Origin: Desulfobacteraceae bacterium
Lineage (GTDB): Bacteria > Desulfobacterota > Desulfobacteria > Desulfobacterales > Desulfobacteraceae
Assembly (NCBI GenBank): GCA_022712835.1
Contig: JAFLJU010000403.1
Span: 1 to 12,581, forward strand
DNA length: 12,581 bases
Reading direction: 5' to 3'
Below the pieces are notes generated by a model. The model had not been told where the DNA came from. It searched no databases and worked only from the letters and a program-made list of their open reading frames with translations. Position numbers and translations under genes: made by a program. Shown in pieces: positions 2-10,312 of the stretch; position 1 is the stretch's first letter, and every line of letters starts with the position of its first letter.

Positions 2-205
2 ACCCTGGATTTGGACATGCCCGGAGAGTGGGGCACTCGTTTTTTCAGCAAACTTGCCCAGGACAAGGATAAAAAAAATATCCCTGTCATTGTCATCAGC
101 GGGATGTCCGACAATGAATACGCCATTCCCAAGGCGGTTGCTAGTTTAACAAAACCCTTTGACCGAAAAAAACTATTAAAAATAGTGCATGATATTATGT
201 CATAA
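2..205 (+). CDS. Response regulator receiver domain, C-terminal part (5' end outside window)
   Basis: The reading frame is open from the left edge of the window and stops at TAA 203-205, leaving about 67 residues of a CheY-like receiver. The likely phospho-acceptor Asp is the GAT at 8-10, in the context LDLDMPG. A hydrophobic strand ending in ISG supplies the switch Ser, and LTKPF supplies the conserved Lys. The frame ends soon after the last helix, so no DNA-binding output domain follows. It is either a stand-alone receiver or the C-terminal domain of a larger protein. The DMPG-x-WG context and the short region between ISG and TKP resemble receivers found in signalling clusters of sulfate-reducing bacteria; that is recalled, not searched. 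It reads in the same direction as the lipoyl-domain gene but is separated from it by an oppositely oriented gene. Confidence 0.85.
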   Translation, partial: TLDLDMPGEWGTRFFSKLAQDKDKKNIPVIVISGMSDNEYAIPKAVASLTKPFDRKKLLKIVHDIMS

Positions 206-257
206 TGTTTTAATTTTTCGATAAGACGCGCCTCAAATTGCGGCCTTCTCTTAAAAA

Positions 258-818
258 TTAAACCTGGCGACGGCCCATTCCACTGCCAGAACCCTGGCCA
301 ACGCGACCCATGCCAGCGCGACCCATGCCTCCTATTCCACGGCCGCCGCCAGAGATGCCGTGACCGCGACCACCTCCGCCCATGCCGCGACCACCACCAC
401 CTCCCATGCATCCTTTCCGTCCTTGAAAGTCAAGGTTTGCTTGACTGCTTGCATCTGCCAACCCAACCTTTTCATTAACCGTTGGATCAGCAGAGGCTGT
501 CAATTCTCCTTGTTTAAACATTTCAACAACCGGCCTAATGATGCCTGTCTGTCCGGTAACCACTTGAATCTTGGCTTCGGAAAATACATTCATGGCATTG
601 GGCCCGCAATTTCCTGTCAGAACCTGTTTGACACCCTTTGACTTAAGAAAGCCTGCCGCTTGGATTCCGGCGCCGCCTCCGAATGATTTGAACTTATTTT
701 CAAACACTTCAAGGCTGTCATCATCTGTCTGGACGATTATAAAATAAGCACATCTGCCCAAACGCTGATCTATCTGGGAATTCATATCTCTCCCTGCCGA
801 ACTGATAGCGATTCTCAT
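258..818 (-). CDS. NifX/NifB-type dinitrogenase iron-molybdenum cofactor family protein with Gly/Arg-rich tail
   Basis: The 186-residue product starts with MRIAISS and carries the family pattern: a Gln-Arg-Leu-Gly-Arg stretch near residue 18, a Gly-Gly-Gly-Ala-Gly-Ile-Gln segment at 47-53, and a GNCGPNA motif at 69-75. These match the RNase-H-like fold of the Nif-Mo-Co/MTH1175 group. Family members bind Fe-S or Fe-Mo cluster precursors (NifX, NafY, the NifB C-terminus), and many non-nif homologues have unknown roles. From about residue 133 the chain becomes a low-complexity tail of Gly, Arg and Met with one Cys (C137). No other nif genes are visible, so a direct role in nitrogenase assembly is not supported. 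The start has a GAGGAG ribosome site about 9 nt upstream. A sigma-54-type promoter lies 62 nt upstream on the same strand (891-906). Confidence 0.85.
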   Translation of the reverse strand: MRIAISSAGRDMNSQIDQRLGRCAYFIIVQTDDDSLEVFENKFKSFGGGAGIQAAGFLKSKGVKQVLTGNCGPNAMNVFSEAKIQVVTGQTGIIRPVVEMFKQGELTASADPTVNEKVGLADASSQANLDFQGRKGCMGGGGGRGMGGGGRGHGISGGGRGIGGMGRAGMGRVGQGSGSGMGRRQV

Positions 819-890
819 TTTTTTGTTCTCCTCTCTATTATAAATAAATGAAGCGCTTATGGATCAATTTCCTTTTTTAGATGTTAATAT

Positions 891-906
891 CGCAAGGAAC
901 ATGCCA
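891..906 (-). promoter_or_regulatory. Predicted sigma-54 (-24/-12) promoter for the NifX-like gene
   Basis: On the minus strand the sequence reads TGGCAT-gttcc-TTGCG, against the consensus TGGCAC-N5-TTGCA/T. The GG and GC elements have the exact required spacing. The predicted start is near 880, giving a leader of about 62 nt to the ATG at 818. Confidence 0.75.
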
Positions 907-949
907 GTTGCTATTTTAATGTATTAAAAAAAATATATCTGTAATCACA

Positions 950-966
950 GCTACTTATAAAGTAGC
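950..966. repeat. 17-bp perfect inverted repeat, possible operator
   Basis: Seven-base arms GCTACTT/AAGTAGC flank a 3-base centre. It lies about 78 bp upstream of the predicted start of the left-hand sigma-54 promoter. No poly-T run follows directly on either strand, so a protein-binding site is more likely than a terminator. Chance occurrence in AT-rich DNA is possible. Confidence 0.4.
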
Positions 967-1067
967 CTTTTGGAAAAAAATGTTGAGTTAAGGTATAAAC
1001 TTGCAAAAATGCGACGGTATAGAGATTGTTGTATTGCAGGGGGTAAAAAATAAATGTTTTATCCTAT

Positions 1068-1100
1068 ATCAAAAGGATACACTGAGTGTACCCTTTTGAT
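1068..1100. promoter_or_regulatory. 33-bp near-perfect palindrome, candidate enhancer (UAS) or operator
   Basis: The left arm is ATCAAAAGGATACACT (1068-1083). After a single central G at 1084 comes AGTGTACCCTTTTGAT (1085-1100). The arms are reverse complements at 15 of 16 positions. The centre lies about 204 bp from the predicted left start (880) and about 217 bp from the predicted right start (1301). The single-base centre and absence of a T-run argue for a dimer-binding site rather than a terminator. Which protein binds it is unknown. Confidence 0.7.
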
Positions 1101-1123
1101 TCACTTTCATAACCTATTGTTAT

Positions 1124-1146
1124 TACAAATAATTAATACAAATAAT
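1124..1146 (+). repeat. 10-bp direct repeat
   Basis: TACAAATAAT occurs at 1124-1133 and again at 1137-1146, 13 bp apart. It lies between the palindrome and the right-hand sigma-54 promoter. It may be a regulator site or simple AT-rich repetition. Confidence 0.3.
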
Positions 1147-1274
1147 AGTCCATACTCTGTAGCATATCGTTACAATAACCCCTCTTTCAATTAACTCTCC
1201 TATTTGATACGGCAAAAGAAAAATAGACTGTATTTTCAGGAAGATAGATTCAATATCCTCGCTTGATTATCACC

Positions 1275-1290
1275 TGGTACGACCATTGCA
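1275..1290 (+). promoter_or_regulatory. Predicted sigma-54 (-24/-12) promoter for the lipoyl-domain gene
   Basis: TGGTAC-gacca-TTGCA matches the consensus TGGCAC-N5-TTGCA with one change outside the invariant GG and GC. The predicted start is near 1301, giving a 66-nt leader to the ATG at 1367. Confidence 0.78.
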
Positions 1291-1300
1291 AAATCTCAAT

Positions 1301-1327
1301 ATTAAAAGAAAGATTAAAAGAAAGATT
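1301..1327 (+). repeat. 12-bp tandem repeat in the leader of the lipoyl-domain gene
   Basis: ATTAAAAGAAAG occurs twice head to tail (1301-1312 and 1313-1324), and a third copy begins with ATT before diverging. The array starts at the predicted +1 of the sigma-54 promoter, so it would form the 5' end of the mRNA. Replication slippage is the simplest origin. Confidence 0.5.
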
Positions 1328-1366
1328 GAATCGATACGTTAACCATTAAAAAAGAGGAGGCCCTAA

Positions 1367-2272
1367 ATGAGTGCAAAATCTAAAAAAGGAATAAGAGGGT
1401 TTCAGGTTGTTGAGGATGAATGTATCTGGATGAAAGCTGGCGTTGTTAGTTATCATACCTGCAACAAAGTCTATGATTGTTTTGATTGTAAGTTTGACAA
1501 GGCCATGACCCGGGCAATGGGCGTTCCGGCAACATTGGAAACCAGTTCAAACTGGGCGACTTATTTTAAGAAAAAATATGATGGTGCATCAAGACCCTGT
1601 CGCCATGTAGTGACCGGACGAATTCAGGACGCCAAAATTTGCACCCACAATTACGAATGCCAGGACTGTGCCTTTGACCAGATGCTGGATGATATTGAAA
1701 TATCCCAGGTACAATCACAGCCCCAAATCTTAAATGTCGCTGGATTTGATCTTGCACAAGATTATTATTACCACGATGCTCACACCTGGGTTCGCATGGA
1801 ACACGGGGGGATGGCGCGGATCGGTTTTGATTCTTTTGCCATGAAACTTTTTGGCAAAGCCAAATTTATTTCAGATACCATGGAGGTTGGCACACCTATG
1901 GAAAAAGACGTGCCTGGGTGGTCCATCACCCAGGATAAAAACAAGGCGAATGTATTGTCTCCCATTTCAGGAACGGTTTTATCCGTAAACCAGCGGGTAA
2001 TAGAGAATCCGTACCTCATCCACGATGATCCCTACCAGGAGGGGTGGTTGTTTATTGTTGAACCGGACTCACCGTTAAAAAGCCTGAAAAAATTAAAATA
2101 CGGGGATGACAGTATCCGCTGGATGGAAAAAGAGACCCTGCGCCTTGCCCAGATGATGGGACCCGATTATGCAAACCTTGCGGCCACCGGTGGAGAACCG
2201 GTCAATGATTTTTATGGTCTTAACCCTGAAATCGGGTGGGACAAATTGGTCCATGCATTTTTAAAAACATGA
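1367..2272 (+). CDS. H-protein-like lipoyl-domain protein with N-terminal double four-Cys region
   Basis: The 301-residue product has two parts. Residues 1-115 hold two similar Cys repeats: C19-x12-C32-x5-C38-x2-C41-x-F-D and C78-x13-C92-x5-C98-x2-C101-x-F-D, suitable for binding Zn or an Fe-S cluster. Residues about 125-235 resemble glycine cleavage H protein, with HDAHTWVR, SPISGTV and DPYQEGWLF. GcvH normally carries lipoyl-lysine and shuttles aminomethyl groups. The aligned lysine here is K191, but the usual ESVKA context is replaced by TQDKN. At 301 residues it is more than twice the length of GcvH, and no other glycine cleavage gene is present, so a role in glycine cleavage is doubtful; an electron-transfer, thiol or signalling role is an inference. 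The ribosome site is GAGGAGG 6 nt before the ATG, and a sigma-54 promoter lies upstream. Confidence 0.85.
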   Translation: MSAKSKKGIRGFQVVEDECIWMKAGVVSYHTCNKVYDCFDCKFDKAMTRAMGVPATLETSSNWATYFKKKYDGASRPCRHVVTGRIQDAKICTHNYECQDCAFDQMLDDIEISQVQSQPQILNVAGFDLAQDYYYHDAHTWVRMEHGGMARIGFDSFAMKLFGKAKFISDTMEVGTPMEKDVPGWSITQDKNKANVLSPISGTVLSVNQRVIENPYLIHDDPYQEGWLFIVEPDSPLKSLKKLKYGDDSIRWMEKETLRLAQMMGPDYANLAATGGEPVNDFYGLNPEIGWDKLVHAFLKT

Positions 2273-2886: not shown

Positions 2887-4236
2887 TCATGGCTTTTCCA
2901 TATGAAAGCGATTGATCATTCGATGGAGCGTAGCGCGGCTGATCCCGAGAATATCTGCTGACCGGGAGATATTCCATTGGTTGTCCTGCAAAATGGTATC
3001 GATGTATTGTTTTTCCACCTCCTTGAGGGTGAGTGTCATGCCATGGGAAGAAGGAGGATAATTGGGTTTAAGGAAATTAAAATCCTCCAGGGTAAGTGTC
3101 CTTGATTTGGACAGCACCACCGCCCTTTCAATGGCATTTTCAAGTTCTCGGACATTGCCGGGCCAGGGATATTGCCTAAGATATTCAAGGGTTTTTCTAT
3201 CTAGGGTGTCAATTTTTTTGGTTGTTTCCTGGCTGTATTTATCAAGAAAATGGTAGGCGAGCAGGGCAATGTCTTCTTTTCTTTCTCTTAAGGGGGGAAT
3301 TTCAATGGAGATGATATTGATCCGGTAAAAGAAATCGCTTCTAAATTGGCCTTCCATGATCTTGCTCTCAAGGTTTTGACGGGTGGCGGACAACAACCTG
3401 AAATCCACATCAATCTCACGGGTATCGCCCAGGCGTGTGATTTTTTTTTCCTGGAGTACCCTAAGAAGGCCCACCTGCATTTTCTGGCTGATCTCACCGA
3501 TTTCATCCAGGAACAGCGTGCCGCCGGAGACCACTTCAAAAAATCCTTTGCGGTTGTGGGATGCGCCGGTAAAGGCCCCTTTATGGTAGCCGAACAATTC
3601 GGATTCCAGAAGGGAATCGGGAAAAGCGCCACAGTTTAAGGGCACAAAGGGCAGATTGTTTCTGGAACTTTTCACATGGATTGCCTTGGCAACCAGTTCT
3701 TTGCCGGTTCCGGTTTCTCCCAGGATAAGAACAGGGGCATCGGTTTTGGCCACCTCTTCAATCATTTGGTATATTTTTTTCATTGGATCCGATTCTCCAA
3801 TGATGTTGTCAAACCGGCAGATCTTGTCCAGTTGCCCTTTGAGATACCGGTATTCTGTCGTAAATTTCATCTGTTGTGATATTTTTTCCATGATCAGAGA
3901 CAGCTGATCCGGTTTAAAGGGCTTGAGAAGATAGTCTGATGCCCCTATTTTCATGGCCTGGACCGCGGTGTCAATTGAGCCGTAGGCCGTTATGATCACC
4001 ACCGCCGTATCCGGATAACGCGTCTTTACAATTTCAAGCAGTTCAAATCCACTCATCCCCGGCATTTTCATGTCCACAAACAAAATGTCGAAATTTTCGT
4101 TTTCAAGTTTTCCCAGGGCATCTTTTCCGTTTTTGGCAGATCGGGTATGATATCCTTGCCTTGAAAACCAGTGATAAAGCGATTCCCTTACCACCAGTTC
4201 ATCATCAACAATCAGTATTTTCATCTGTTGATCCAT
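2887..4236 (-). CDS. NtrC-family sigma-54-dependent response regulator
   Basis: The 449-residue protein is a complete bacterial enhancer-binding protein. The receiver spans 1-120 (D11, D12, phospho-acceptor D55, K105). The AAA+ domain spans about 143-375, with Walker A GETGTGKE at 173-180, the sigma-54-contacting GAFTGA loop at 220-225 and Walker B LFLDEIGE at 241-248. A Fis-type helix-turn-helix lies at about 406-446. All key residues are present, so it should hydrolyse ATP and open sigma-54 promoters. The frame is open to 4302, but the ATG at 4236 is preferred: it has a GGGGA ribosome site 6 nt upstream and starts just before the receiver. With this start, 26 bases separate it from the upstream kinase gene, its likely phospho-donor. 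Targets are unproven; the sigma-54 promoters at 891-906, 1275-1290 and 6092-6107 are candidates. Confidence 0.95.
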   Translation of the reverse strand: MDQQMKILIVDDELVVRESLYHWFSRQGYHTRSAKNGKDALGKLENENFDILFVDMKMPGMSGFELLEIVKTRYPDTAVVIITAYGSIDTAVQAMKIGASDYLLKPFKPDQLSLIMEKISQQMKFTTEYRYLKGQLDKICRFDNIIGESDPMKKIYQMIEEVAKTDAPVLILGETGTGKELVAKAIHVKSSRNNLPFVPLNCGAFPDSLLESELFGYHKGAFTGASHNRKGFFEVVSGGTLFLDEIGEISQKMQVGLLRVLQEKKITRLGDTREIDVDFRLLSATRQNLESKIMEGQFRSDFFYRINIISIEIPPLRERKEDIALLAYHFLDKYSQETTKKIDTLDRKTLEYLRQYPWPGNVRELENAIERAVVLSKSRTLTLEDFNFLKPNYPPSSHGMTLTLKEVEKQYIDTILQDNQWNISRSADILGISRATLHRMINRFHMEKP

Positions 4237-4262: not shown

Positions 4263-5786
4263 TCAGTCTGAAACCACACCGGGAAACGAAAATATAAAGC
4301 AAGTTCCCCGGTCCGAGGTTTTATTTACCCGAACTTCTCCGTTATGATCCTTTACAATCCCATAAACGATGGAAAGACCCAGGCCTGTCCCGCCCTCTTT
4401 TTTGGTGGTAAAAAACGGATCAAAAATATGTTCCAGATTTTCATCATTGATCCCGGAGCCATTGTCAGAGATTTCAACCCATACTTTTTTTGAGTCGGCA
4501 TGAATCCCTGAGTTAATGACAAGCATTCCTCCTTTGGGCATGGCATCTATGGCATTGAAGATAAGATTTAAAAAGCATTGCTGCAATTGATTCTTATCTC
4601 CGAAAACAATAAGGAGAATAGACTTTTCAAGGCAGGTTTCCAATTGAATGTTGCAAAGTTCCAGCTTATGACGGGTAAGAGAGATAACCGTCTCAAGAAT
4701 TTCATTGATATCCGTGTTTACAAATTCCAGTACCGATTCCCGGGAAAAGGCAAGAAGACCGGATACAATATTTCCGCAGCGTTCAAGTTCCCTTGTCATG
4801 TGTGTATTAAATTCCCTGAGTTGTTCAAGGTCTTTCTTATCAAACTGCTCTTTTTGGGCCATATCTTTGATGATATAGCTGAAGGTGAGAAGGCCCTGGA
4901 TGGGATTGTTTATCTCATGGACACTGCTGGCAACCAATTTCCCCAGGGCCACCAGCCGGTCCTCCTGGATAACTTGTTTCATGTCAGCGTGTATCCGCTT
5001 TACCTTGTTTTCCCATTTTTCCGTAATTTCCGAGGTGATATCCTGCCACAATTCTATAATATGGGTGATCTTATCCTCCAGACCTCTTATGGGATAGGCG
5101 GAAATACTGAAATATTTAGTTCGCTTGTCAGGCAAAACAGTCTCATGGATTATATGGGAGGGGGTTCCCGTATCCAGGGTTTTCATTAACGGACATACAA
5201 CACTGCTGTTTTCAGAAGGGCAGGGGGCATAGAAGCCTTTAACGATTTTATAGCATTTCTCACCGATCACTTCTGTTGCAGTTTTCCGACAGGCTTTTAA
5301 ATAGACCTGATTGGCATCCACAATATTGAAATCTAAATCCAGAACAATCACCCCCAGATTTGTTTGTTGAAAAAGAATTTCATAATACCGCTTGTCCAGG
5401 ATGGCCTGTTTTTTTGTCTGGATTAAATTATGGTTTGTTTCAAAGAGATTTCTGATTAAACGACCGATATTATGCTCGATGACACCCACGTTCTCCGGGC
5501 GCATGGCAATCAACTCCGGAAGACTCTTGTTGTTGGTCAATTCAATAATCGCATCCAGTCGTTTATCCTTAAAAAAATCATGGAAATTCTCAAGGGTTGA
5601 TATTCCTAACTCCCTGGCCTTTATCATCCCCGGGGCCTGGGGGTTGATATCGCAAACACCTAATATTTTTAAGTCAAGATGCGGAAAATCGCTTGATTCA
5701 AGGAGATTAAGAAAATAAACACATGCGTTGCCGCCGCCCACAATACCAATGTTGAAGGAAAGTTCTTTCTGATCTTTAGAATTCAT
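4263..5786 (-). CDS. Histidine kinase with N-terminal Rossmann domain and Cys-containing PAS domain
   Basis: This 507-residue soluble kinase has an unusual N-terminus. Residues 11-115 resemble an NAD(P)-binding Rossmann fold of oxidoreductase type: GIVGGGNA at 14-21, an acidic residue after the second strand (D46 in VCDIN), and a Gfo/Idh-like run to about residue 115. A PAS domain follows at about 135-255, with C178, C189 and C198 in CYK...CP...CP. The kinase core has an H-box at about 280-300 (H290 in VHEINNP), an N-box at N411, a G1 box at D441-N-G-S-G and a G2 box GGTGLGLS at 465-472. No transmembrane segment is visible. It is the first gene of a kinase-activator-protease operon and probably phosphorylates the adjacent activator. 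The start ATG has AGGGGA about 10 nt upstream. No sigma-54 promoter was found for it. Confidence 0.93.
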
Positions 5787-5950
5787 GACGATATTTTCCC
5801 CTTTGGCAAAAAAAGCAGATTCTTTTAAAAAACAATAGCTGATACCTAAGCCATATGCAATGAAAAGCTATTTCTTGAAATACAATTCCTATCAATCGGG
5901 AAAAGAGGTGAATTTGATAAGGTTGGGCAGTTCCGGGAAAACTTAGAGGC

Positions 5951-6007
5951 TTTTGAATATTTCGAAATTTTGGAATAGTTCAAAGGTGTTTTTTGAATAT
6001 TCCAGAA
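5951..6007. promoter_or_regulatory. Three related dyad sites, candidate upstream activator sequence
   Basis: TTTGAATATTTCGAAA (5952-5967), TTTGGAATAGTTCAAA (5969-5984, best matched in reverse) and TTTGAATATTCCAGAA (5992-6007) share a TTTGAA-TATTcC core with weak internal dyad symmetry. The element TTTTGAATATT recurs exactly 40 bp apart (5951 and 5991). The dyad centres lie about 120, 141 and 159 bp upstream of the predicted start near 6118, within the usual range for enhancer-binding proteins. Confidence 0.55.
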
Positions 6008-6091
6008 TAAAAAACGCCTTCAGGGGGTGTAACCCAACTTCATAAATGTTAACAGGCTGTATTTATTGGCTAAACGCCTATGTCTTTCGGC

Positions 6092-6107
6092 TGGCATGGT
6101 TTCTGCT
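6092..6107 (+). promoter_or_regulatory. Predicted sigma-54 (-24/-12) promoter for the haem-kinase operon
   Basis: TGGCAT-ggttt-CTGCT fits TGGCAC-N5-TTGCA/T with exact GG and GC spacing. The predicted start is near 6118, leaving a leader of about 117 nt before the ATG at 6235. Confidence 0.68.
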
Positions 6108-6234: not shown

Positions 6235-8508
6235 ATGGAAAAAAGATTTCTTCATAAAAGAGGATTGGCTTTCAAGCTCTTGATTCCTGTTGGTATTGTT
6301 CTTTTCATCAGTCTTTTTGTCTGGTCCTACTATAGCGCCCGCTACCAGGAACGTATTCTCATTGACAAAGCTGTCTTGGATGTGGATAAATTTTGCAATT
6401 CGGTTTTGAAGCTGACCTGGTTTGCCATGCTTCACAGCCCTAGTGAAGACATGCAGGATATTTTAAATTCCATGTCCGAGTACAATGATATTGAAGAAAT
6501 TCGAATATTTAATCGCCAGGGGAAAATACGTTTTTCAAATGAAAGCTCGGAGTTGGAAACCATTGGACAAAAACAGGATGTCGCCTGTAAAATATGCCAT
6601 AACAAAGAACCACCGGAGATGAAAACCGATATCAAAGACCGGATACGAATGTTTGAGTCCAAGGATGGTGATTTGAAGTTAGGAGTGATCAATCCGATTT
6701 TAAATGCAAGCTCCTGTGCAAGTTCTGACTGCCATTATCACCCGAAGAACATCAAAAAGCTTGGCACACTGGATGTGGTGGTATCTTTGAAATCCGTCAA
6801 ACAGGAGATTGGTCAGAGCAAAAAAATGTTTGTATGGACAGCCGTCTATCTGTTTGCCACTCTGGCCCTTACCATCTGCATTATTGTTTTTTTTCGGGTC
6901 ACCCATCCCATCAATCGCTTGATCACAAATACTAGAAGCATTGCAAAGGGTAAGTTTACAGCCCTTAACAGTGATTTGCCTTCAGGGGATGAAATCGGGC
7001 AGCTTTCTTATGCCATCAATGATATGGGAATGGAAATCCATGAAAAGCAAATAGCACTGAATCGTCAAAAGGATATTTACCGTCACTTGTTTGAGCAGGT
7101 ACCCTGCACCATTACCGTCCAAAACAGACAATATGAACTCATCGAGTTTAACCAGGAGTTTGCCCGTAGGTTTAATCCGGAATATGGTGATTATTGCTAT
7201 GCCGCCTATAAAGATTTGGACGCCAAATGTCTCAATTGTCCGGTTGAAAAAACTTTTTTGGACGGAAAATCTCATTTCAGTGAAGAGTCCGGGGTTAATA
7301 AGGATGGATCCATCGCCCATTGGTTTGTGAAAACAGCTCCCCTCAAAGATGAAAACGGGAATATTGTCGCGGCCATGGAGATGAGCCTGGATATCAGCCG
7401 CCGGAAAAAACTGGAAGAAGAGGTTAAAATATCGGAAAAAAAATACCAGGCCATTTTTAAAAATATCCCCAACCCTGTGTTCATCCTGGACAGGGATGAG
7501 TTGACCATCCTGGACTGCAATGATTCGGCAGTGTCTGCCTATGGATATGACCGGAAGGAACTCAAAGGGAAAGGATTTAAGATTCTTTTTCCCAGCACCA
7601 GGGAGTTTGAACGGATAGGTAACCATATCACACTTTCCTTCCATGAACGGGTCGTGAACCTGAGAAAGAATGAGGATTATTTATATGCCAATATCTGGAT
7701 CAGTCCGGCTGACTTTGCCGATAAAAAAGTACTGATTGTCACGGCCGTGGATATTACAAATTCCGTAGAAACCGAGCATCAATTGATCCAGGCTGGCAAA
7801 ATGGCCACCCTGGGAGAAATGGCAACGGGCGTGGCCCATGAATTAAACCAGCCCCTGTCAGTGATCAAAACGGCTTCCGGGTTTATTGCCAGGAAAATAG
7901 GAACCGATCAGGATATTGACCGGGCCATTTTAAAAACATTGTCCGAGGAGATTGAACGCCATGTGGATAGGGCTTCCAAAATCACCAACCACATGCGCTT
8001 GTTTGGTCGAAAATCCAATTTTAAAAAAGAGTCGGTGGATATTAATGATATTTTGAAGCGGGCTTTTGATATTTTCAGTCAGCAGCTGAAACTTCGGGAA
8101 ATACAGGTGAACTTTGTACTTGCCGAAGATTTGCCCCGGATCAGTGCAGATTTTGTTCGTTTGGAGCAGGTGTTTATCAATATGCTGCTCAATTCAAGGG
8201 ACGCCATCGTGAGCAAATTTGACGGCATCAACAGCCCCAAAAACGAGAAAAAGCAGATCACTCTGATAACCGAAGTTAAGGATGATAAGGTCCGGGTGAA
8301 AATAAGGGACACTGGCATTGGCATTGCAAGTTCTGACATTGATAAGATTTTCGAACCTTTTTTTACCACAAAGAAAGTCGGGGAGGGGACGGGGCTAGGG
8401 TTGTCCATATCCTATGGTATCATCAAAGAATCCGGAGGGGAGATTTTTGTCCACAACAATAAGGACGGGGGGGTTACCTTTATCATGCTTTTTGCCAGGA
8501 AAAGATGA
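6235..8508 (+). CDS. Membrane sensor histidine kinase with periplasmic c-type haem motifs
   Basis: The 757-residue kinase has transmembrane segments at about 13-33 and 199-220, enclosing a periplasmic sensor domain. That domain contains a c-haem motif C118-x2-C121-H122 and a second, C161-x4-C166-H167 followed by Tyr-His-Pro. A HAMP domain (about 221-275) and two PAS domains (about 283-395 and 400-510) follow. The first PAS has C321, C332 and C335 (CY...CLNCPVEKTF). The kinase core has H535 in AHELNQP, an N-box at N653, G1 D692-T-G-I-G and G2 GEGTGLGLS at 716-724. Haem-containing sensors of this layout are known in delta-proteobacteria and usually sense redox or gas ligands. The ATG at 6235 is preferred over the TTG just before it because AAGGAGG lies 7 nt upstream. 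It is first in the operon; its stop overlaps the next start (ATGA at 8505-8508). Confidence 0.93.
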   Translation: MEKRFLHKRGLAFKLLIPVGIVLFISLFVWSYYSARYQERILIDKAVLDVDKFCNSVLKLTWFAMLHSPSEDMQDILNSMSEYNDIEEIRIFNRQGKIRFSNESSELETIGQKQDVACKICHNKEPPEMKTDIKDRIRMFESKDGDLKLGVINPILNASSCASSDCHYHPKNIKKLGTLDVVVSLKSVKQEIGQSKKMFVWTAVYLFATLALTICIIVFFRVTHPINRLITNTRSIAKGKFTALNSDLPSGDEIGQLSYAINDMGMEIHEKQIALNRQKDIYRHLFEQVPCTITVQNRQYELIEFNQEFARRFNPEYGDYCYAAYKDLDAKCLNCPVEKTFLDGKSHFSEESGVNKDGSIAHWFVKTAPLKDENGNIVAAMEMSLDISRRKKLEEEVKISEKKYQAIFKNIPNPVFILDRDELTILDCNDSAVSAYGYDRKELKGKGFKILFPSTREFERIGNHITLSFHERVVNLRKNEDYLYANIWISPADFADKKVLIVTAVDITNSVETEHQLIQAGKMATLGEMATGVAHELNQPLSVIKTASGFIARKIGTDQDIDRAILKTLSEEIERHVDRASKITNHMRLFGRKSNFKKESVDINDILKRAFDIFSQQLKLREIQVNFVLAEDLPRISADFVRLEQVFINMLLNSRDAIVSKFDGINSPKNEKKQITLITEVKDDKVRVKIRDTGIGIASSDIDKIFEPFFTTKKVGEGTGLGLSISYGIIKESGGEIFVHNNKDGGVTFIMLFARKR

Positions 8509-9775: not shown

Positions 9776-10312
9776 ATGGTACGTCTTTGTCTGACAAAGG
9801 AGGGGGTTATTTTAAACAGAGATAAACCTGTGGGAAAGAATGTTTTTTCCCTTTTATCCCATCCCATTACCCTGGCTCCGGGCTTTACTTTATCCTCTTT
9901 TTTTGCCATGATTTCTCGATATCCGGAACTGATAAAATTGTCTGAACTGCTGGAAACCTTTTTATCCATGGCAACGGCCTATAATGAAAAGTTCGCTCAA
10001 ACAGATGAAATCGAAGGGCTGATTTTTTTTAAAACCATTGCCATGAAAGGATTTCCCGGAAAACCTTCATTACAGATATACAATTCACTAAAGGGGAGAA
10101 AGGGAAGTCAAACCACACCCTTAAAATTTTTTCAGATGGAAAGTTTATTGGCCCACACACTTATTTTGGGGGAGTTGAAACATATCATTTTTGGGGATGG
10201 GCAGGATGAGTTTATCTATGAAACTGTTTATTCGCTGTTTGAGCTGATAGAAGGAATTACATGGGAATTATCATTTAATTTTAACCCGTTACAATGTTCC
10301 ATAAGGAGGTAA
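9776..10312 (+). CDS. Conserved-context protein of unknown function
   Basis: I do not recognise this 178-residue protein. It is predicted soluble: there is a moderately hydrophobic stretch near residues 34-46, but no clear signal peptide or membrane helix. The middle (51-95) and C-terminal half (115-160) look mainly helical, with acidic segments and repeated aromatic residues. Cys occur only at 5 and 174, so it is not a metal-Cys protein. It begins 2 bases after the preceding kinase stop, with an AAGGAAGGAA ribosome site, and its own stop lies inside the ribosome site of the stress-protein gene. This firmly places it in the operon between the kinase and the universal stress protein. It could be a partner or regulator of one of these, but the sequence alone gives no function. 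Confidence 0.75.
   Translation: MVRLCLTKEGVILNRDKPVGKNVFSLLSHPITLAPGFTLSSFFAMISRYPELIKLSELLETFLSMATAYNEKFAQTDEIEGLIFFKTIAMKGFPGKPSLQIYNSLKGRKGSQTTPLKFFQMESLLAHTLILGELKHIIFGDGQDEFIYETVYSLFELIEGITWELSFNFNPLQCSIRR
10303..10310 (+). promoter_or_regulatory. Ribosome binding site overlapping a stop codon
   Basis: AAGGAGGT is a near-perfect Shine-Dalgarno sequence 5 nt before the ATG at 10316. It overlaps the last codons and TAA stop of the preceding gene, so termination upstream may assist high-level initiation of the stress protein. Confidence 0.8.

Follow-up and report, generated by a model that had tools for sequence, protein, structure and literature searches.

The intergenic spacer at 819-1366, which parts a minus-strand NifX-like gene from a plus-strand GcvH-like gene, very probably consists of two independent sigma-54 control units placed back to back, judging from its sites, their positions and their conservation. 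Unit 1 (1065-1290) would drive the Cys-rich GcvH-like gene, and unit 2 (891-1039) would drive the NifX-like gene from the promoter at 906-891 via a different operator. The initial annotation of the window (the whole stretch of 12,581 nucleotides that was analysed) had proposed a shared enhancer for both genes, a proposal not borne out by the comparisons below, since the promoter of the NifX-like gene is conserved in its own right and is paired with an operator of another type. Both flanking genes are as that annotation described them, and they stand together with the following neighbours.

2-205, plus strand: 3' end of a response-regulator gene, likely the old upstream neighbour of the GcvH-like unit
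258-818, minus strand: NifX-like gene (186 aa, PF02579, Gly-rich tail)
1367-2272, plus strand: GcvH-like gene with a Cys-rich N-terminus (301 aa, PF01597)
2355-2885: M54 metallopeptidase gene, between the GcvH-like gene and the activator gene in the conserved cassette
2887-4236, minus strand: response-regulator sigma-54 activator (receiver, AAA+, HTH_8), the predicted reader of sites D2, D1 and P
4263-5786, minus strand: sensor kinase adjoining the activator, its probable partner

The comparison set comprises 63 loci encoding the GcvH-like protein, obtained by a scan of genome contigs. The nearest relative, L001, is Desulfobacula sp. S2_67, in which seven matched genes are 69-90% identical to those of the window; the eighth matched gene, for a universal stress protein, is 35% identical and does not count as an orthologue. 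From this likeness the window probably derives from a Desulfobacula-like member of the Desulfobacterales. Gene order 3' of the GcvH-like gene in the 63 loci is that of the window, namely M54 peptidase, activator and kinase. Among loci with enough room, the peptidase gene is present in 56 of 58, an activator homologue of at least 50% identity adjoins the GcvH-like gene in 51 of 53 (exceptions L010 and L038), and the sensor kinase is found in 44 of 44. In the activator itself, a GAFTGA loop is visible by eye in the translation, alongside the receiver, the AAA+ domain and the Fis-type HTH (HTH_8).

Eight N-terminal cysteines of the GcvH-like proteins are invariant. Lipoylation is probably not a trait of the family in general, because the lipoyl-lysine position, taken from alignment to the pea H protein, is a lysine in only 3 of 25 aligned sequences, the window's included. 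Loci with tandem GcvH-like genes, two each, include L037, L041 and L049. As for the kinase at 4263-5786, its approximately 135 N-terminal residues have no Pfam match and contain a glycine-rich GIVGGG stretch that resembles a nucleotide-binding fold; this N-terminus might sense a cofactor. A 178-aa ORF at 9776-10312, lying between two signalling genes, likewise has no Pfam match, yet it is retained next to these genes in L001 and L002.

Two divergent -24/-12 promoters had been predicted in the spacer, and both are present beyond chance.

1275-1290, plus strand: sigma-54 promoter of the GcvH-like gene, TGGTACGACCATTGCA, with 11 of 12 consensus positions and exact GG-N10-GC spacing
891-906, minus strand: sigma-54 promoter of the NifX-like gene, TGGCATGTTCCTTGCG, with 10 of 12 consensus positions and an exact GG-N10-GC core

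A plus-strand promoter with at least 9 of 12 positions occurs in 63 of 64 upstream regions (the window and the 63 loci), the sole exception being L011 with an upstream region of 284 bp. Among 2036 control strand-blocks, each of 620 bp, such a promoter occurs in 190 (9.3%), and the opposite (minus) strand of the same upstream regions reaches this threshold in 10 of 64. At some loci the start codon has perhaps been chosen too far downstream, so that promoter-start distances, which extend to ~560 bp, call for caution. Taken with the orthologue comparison given below for the NifX side, sequence conservation indicates that both are probably real sigma-54 promoters.

The operators of the GcvH-like gene emerge from a palindromic expectation-maximisation search of the 320 bp upstream of the -24 element in 62 regions (L057 left out). 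The resulting motif, TGTWGC-N5-GCWACA, has width 17 and a log-likelihood of 340. Widths 16, 18 and 20 yield 114-173, while widths 19 and 21 return the same motif in extended form; six dinucleotide-shuffled sets, run with somewhat fewer starting seeds than the real search, give 52-62. When the motif is retrained on the 54 regions that exclude the window and L001-L007, its log-likelihood is 304, and over the whole 12.6-kb window its top three places all fall in the spacer.

1158-1174: site P, TGTAGCATATCGTTACA, centre -109 from the -24 element, 18.9 bits, the best in the window; predicted activator site
1087-1103: site D1, TGTACCCTTTTGATTCA, centre -180, 10.5 bits, second in the window; predicted activator site
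1065-1081: site D2, TATATCAAAAGGATACA, centre -202, 7.5 bits, third in the window, 22 bp from D1; predicted activator site

The fourth place of the retrained motif lies at 6058 with 6.0 bits. When the window's 320-bp region was shuffled 2000 times, the score of P was never reached, that of D1 was reached in 21 shuffles and that of D2 in 90; D1 and D2 are weak singly in the window (10.5 and 7.5 bits). Across 61 loci, sites are found in the D1 zone in 38 (at least 8 bits), in the D2 zone in 31 (at least 5 bits) and in the P zone in 37 (at least 8 bits), versus 2, 0 and 1 in the respective control zones. Both D1 and P reach 8 bits in only 25 of the 61 loci. Between sites of at least 10 bits, the frequent spacings are 22 bp (seen in 12 pairs), 78-81 bp (in 22) and 99-103 bp (in 13). 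Sites this strong are lacking from six of 63 regions, the close relative L006 among them. The distance from P to D1 is 71 bp in the window versus 78-80 bp in L001-L007, with P unrecognisable in L006; the shortening, located at 1104-1157, amounts to about one helical turn and consists mostly of a 9-bp gap relative to L001.

The 33-bp palindrome around which the initial annotation was built overlaps two of these sites.

1068-1100: palindrome formed by the facing halves of D2 and D1 around ACA-N5-TGT, with 15 of 16 arm positions paired

The palindrome is real: 15 of 16 arm positions pair around one central base, which is beyond chance, since 300 dinucleotide shuffles of 819-1366, searched with up to one mismatch and a gap of up to 6, yield no palindrome with more than 13 paired positions. 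The distances reported for it, 217 and 204 bp, follow from its centre at 1084 and starts at ~1301 and ~880, and its sequence differs, on inspection by eye, from that of the dyads at 5951-6007, as had been stated. It also sits in a predicted enhancer. Its reading as a single operator is not supported, however, as it is the junction of D2 and D1, and the annotation had not listed site P at 1158-1174 and the NifX-side operator at 1000-1025. Read from the alignments, the palindrome is the inner halves of the predicted tandem operators D2 and D1: the ACA-N5-TGT junction is an inverted repeat because each consensus operator is itself an inverted repeat with TGT and ACA ends.

According to dyad symmetry of the 33-mer, the window and L001-L007 score 15, 12, 8, 8, 11, 9, 9 and 8 of 16, respectively. 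Over 61 loci the window alone is at 15, the other 60 are at 2-12, and 57 of the 61 do not exceed 9. As a palindrome it is therefore not conserved: the long symmetry is, as far as these loci indicate, mostly a feature of the window and its nearest relative, with the two operators kept more widely. It was this comparison of dyad symmetry with site scores across loci that led to the idea of one conserved operator being given up. That it serves as one operator for a separate regulator is very unlikely: the dyad does exceed the length that two half-sites need, and 12 of 16 positions are retained in L001, but in L002-L007 symmetry falls to 8-11 of 16 while ACA-N5-TGT stays exact in 6 of 8 rows (window and L001-L007), and the same bases are explained by two 17-mer sites. 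A role as transcription terminator or as RNA is less credible still. The RNA of both strands folds strongly (z of -5.2 and -5.3), and in L001 the position of the palindrome is ~25 bp past the response-regulator stop codon; no terminator-like site, however, is called within 600-1700, both flanking promoters point outward, away from the palindrome, and its bases are accounted for by the conserved sites.

Another regulator had been suggested as reader of the palindrome, but the neighbouring activator at 2887-4236 is likelier. Gene linkage makes this adjacent activator the probable reader of D2, D1 and P: the operator is conserved 5' of the GcvH-like target and linked to the activator gene, as in the regulon of a two-component enhancer-binding protein. 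The strict 17-mer pattern occurs at 6 places in nine genomes versus 4 for the reversed control, which is little informative on regulon size. A double-site pattern with two mismatches allowed occurs at 13 places in ten genomes versus 7 for the reversed control, palindromic matches being counted once. By coordinates, 6 of these 13 places lie upstream of GcvH-like genes (L005, L015, L025, L027, L060 and L062), and the remaining 7 equal the reversed control in number; in 4 of the ten genomes the double-site pattern is absent from the GcvH-like upstream region.

For unit 1 the following course of events is proposed. The adjacent kinase presumably phosphorylates the activator, whose dimers would bind three 17-bp sites, the tandem D2/D1 pair 22 bp apart and the nearer P. 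An activator ring would then form and loop to RNA polymerase-sigma-54 at 1275-1290. Looping activation is the mode of other activators in this class. Between P and the promoter, the segment TATTTTCAGGAAGATA (1231-1246) resembles a block (like TATTTACAGATAGATA) found in most of L001-L006, though it is not an exact IHF consensus. No exact IHF consensus was found in the spacer; matches at 8 of 9 positions number seven in this AT-rich sequence versus a mean of 2.8 in 200 shuffles.

By analogy, unit 1 would work like several described systems, and its kind appears to be known already. In the orp system of Desulfovibrio vulgaris Hildenborough, DVU2106 drives both divergent sigma-54 units and IHF is needed (PMC3897727). 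Like orp, the spacer belongs to a sulfate reducer and carries palindromic activator sites flanked by two divergent sigma-54 units, but it has no exact IHF consensus, and each promoter here appears to have its own operator type rather than one type serving both. Kazakov et al. 2015 describe Desulfovibrio activator motifs in which the half-sites TGT and ACA stand 11 bp apart, with the activator genes frequently located near the promoters they serve (PMC4641369). The half-sites found here, TGT and ACA 11 bp apart, are of this class, although the published class comes from the Desulfovibrionales (PMC4641369); "glycine cleavage" has no occurrence in the main text of that paper. NorR at norVW of Escherichia coli has three sites upstream of one sigma-54 promoter, described as a scaffold for higher-order oligomers (PMC2941729), and three operators, the third weak, are likewise predicted upstream of one sigma-54 promoter here. 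NorR has a GAF sensor domain, in contrast to the receiver of the window's activator, and the likeness drawn here concerns the number of sites. Among the openly licensed papers listed by searches with a few terms, none concerned a sigma-54 regulon of the GcvH-like protein or its pairing with NifX.

Unit 2 was delineated with nine NifX orthologues (64-72% identity) from a search of 86 genomes of the family of L001. In addition to the promoter, it comprises two features.

1000-1025, minus strand: predicted NifX-side operator block, TCTCTATACCGTCGCATTTTTGCAAG, starting -119 from the NifX -24 element
1033-1039, minus strand: further NifX-side half-site CTGCAAT, conserved in the orthologue alignment

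In all nine orthologues the promoter is near-identical, spacer bases included (TGGCAT-N2-TC[CT]TTGC), and lies 64-189 bp upstream of the NifX gene. The block TCTCTATACCGTTGCATTTCTGCAAT likewise finds its best match in 9 of 9 at a start of -118 to -122 relative to the -24 element; this match agrees at 22-25 of 26 positions in seven orthologues, at 17 and 18 in L097 and L098, and at 23 in the window. An operator profile built from the nine orthologues, with the window left out, scores 33.0 bits at 1000-1025, the next best place in the window having 9.6. The CTGCAAT half-site is present in 7 of 9, reads CTGCACT in L099 and is absent from L097. An inverted-repeat search within 990-1060 found nothing.

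As for the reader of this operator, an activator ~40% identical to the window's lies directly upstream of NifX in 7 of 9 orthologue loci, the two without it being L097 and L098; two such activators checked by domain are PAS-AAA+-HTH_8. The operators are good in the seven loci with the activator and poor in the two without, which supports assignment of the NifX operator to the activator that adjoins NifX in relatives. In the window, unit 2 would accordingly be read by another activator, one encoded elsewhere than in the window. L121 has a PAS-type activator at 4494-5876; its other genes near NifX encode a fusion of a cation-efflux transporter with a NifX domain, another small NifX-like protein, a protein combining receiver and kinase, and a large protein with flavin and iron-sulfur domains.

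The starting idea of a shared enhancer was dropped on account of these nine orthologues, which elsewhere keep the promoter and the distinct operator with no GcvH-type site. In that arrangement the activator at D2/D1 would drive both promoters, as DVU2106 does for the orp operons. Geometry would allow it: D1 lies 180 bp from the GcvH-side and 189 bp from the NifX-side -24 element, D2 202 and 167 bp, respectively, so that both are about equally far from either promoter, and orp is a known co-regulated divergent pair (PMC3897727). Against this stand the conserved operator and promoter that the NifX gene keeps for itself, the same unit in nine orthologues whose 320 bp upstream of the promoter contain no GcvH-type 17-mer (best score at most 0 bits), and the lack of conservation of the NifX/GcvH-like pair. 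On balance a shared enhancer is improbable, and two separate units remain the preferred reading. Several observations count against two units, namely the low scores of D1 and D2, the six regions without a site of at least 10 bits, the shorter P-D1 distance of the window and the poor NifX operators of L097 and L098. In addition, the NifX operator profile scores 17.0 bits in L035 at ~6671-6696, ~300 bp upstream of the GcvH-like promoter and reading toward the GcvH-like gene, with no NifX gene found nearby.

The idea of the gene pairing as a system finds no support either. None of the 56 other loci with enough upstream sequence shows a NifX gene in the 1.5 kb ahead of the GcvH-like gene (tblastn, E 1e-8), and no relative keeping the pair was found. 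Conversely, no GcvH-like gene stands beside NifX in the nine orthologue loci (~1.5 kb each side); the GcvH-like homologues, present in all nine genomes (37-47% identity), are on other contigs or, in G063, ~87 kb away. Most of the nine genomes have neighbouring pairs of more distant GcvH-like paralogues.

Comparison with L001 suggests how the two genes came together. Window positions 101-205 have their counterpart at L001 7547-7651, and the alignment resumes at window 1066 with L001 7673, which defines the missing segment.

206-1065: segment missing from L001, 860 bp in the window versus 21 bp, with the NifX gene, its promoter and its operator

No gene besides NifX is called in this segment, other ORFs overlapping it in other frames. 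The gene directly upstream of the GcvH-like enhancer in L001 is the response-regulator gene, to which window 2-205 is 92% identical over 66 aa. Because only 21 bp in the nearest relative correspond to window 206-1065, the NifX unit probably entered whole, in a single block, between the response-regulator gene and the older GcvH-like enhancer. This empty site is shown by one relative only (L001), and the direction of the event is a matter of parsimony: as none of the 56 other loci shows a NifX gene in the 1.5 kb upstream, a gain in the window's lineage would be simpler than a gain followed by loss. The NifX/GcvH-like junction of the window may also originate from a chimeric assembly; the only NifX protein as close as 99% identity is encoded on a contig of 2.2 kb.

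If unit 2 and its gene arrived in this way, between the response-regulator gene and unit 1, some cross-wiring could have followed, each promoter answering mainly to its own unit and each activator also reaching the other promoter. This is compatible with two units, and it is a lesser but appreciable possibility. Sigma-54 activators can work from remote sites whatever their orientation, so cross-activation is physically possible with D1 at 180 and 189 bp, and the two operator kinds lie 25-39 bp apart, within looping distance of both promoters. Geometry or bending may, on the other hand, insulate the two units; no insulating element was identified in the spacer. We consider it rather doubtful that the NifX insertion, by leaving the older enhancer nearly halfway between two sigma-54 promoters, went on to make a two-input, two-output switch in which both promoters are reached by both activators, one a phospho-relay regulator and the other probably a PAS sensor. 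If true, such a switch would be a direct natural case of sigma-54 circuits wired together by gene insertion.

The GcvH-like unit, for its part, represents a compact predicted regulon in many Desulfobacterota, with a response regulator, a three-site enhancer and a Cys-rich GcvH-like target, and it offers a testable regulator for an uncharacterised protein family. Two sigma-54 units joined, probably by insertion, can moreover mimic a shared enhancer when a single genome is read.

A third sigma-54 unit is visible in the window at 5951-6107. It has another operator, with TGGAATAGTTCAAAGG and TTTTTGAATATTCCA dyads, and a promoter, TGGCATGGTTTCTGCT (6092-6107), that precedes the kinase gene at 6235; dyads and promoter are nearly unchanged in L001 and L002.
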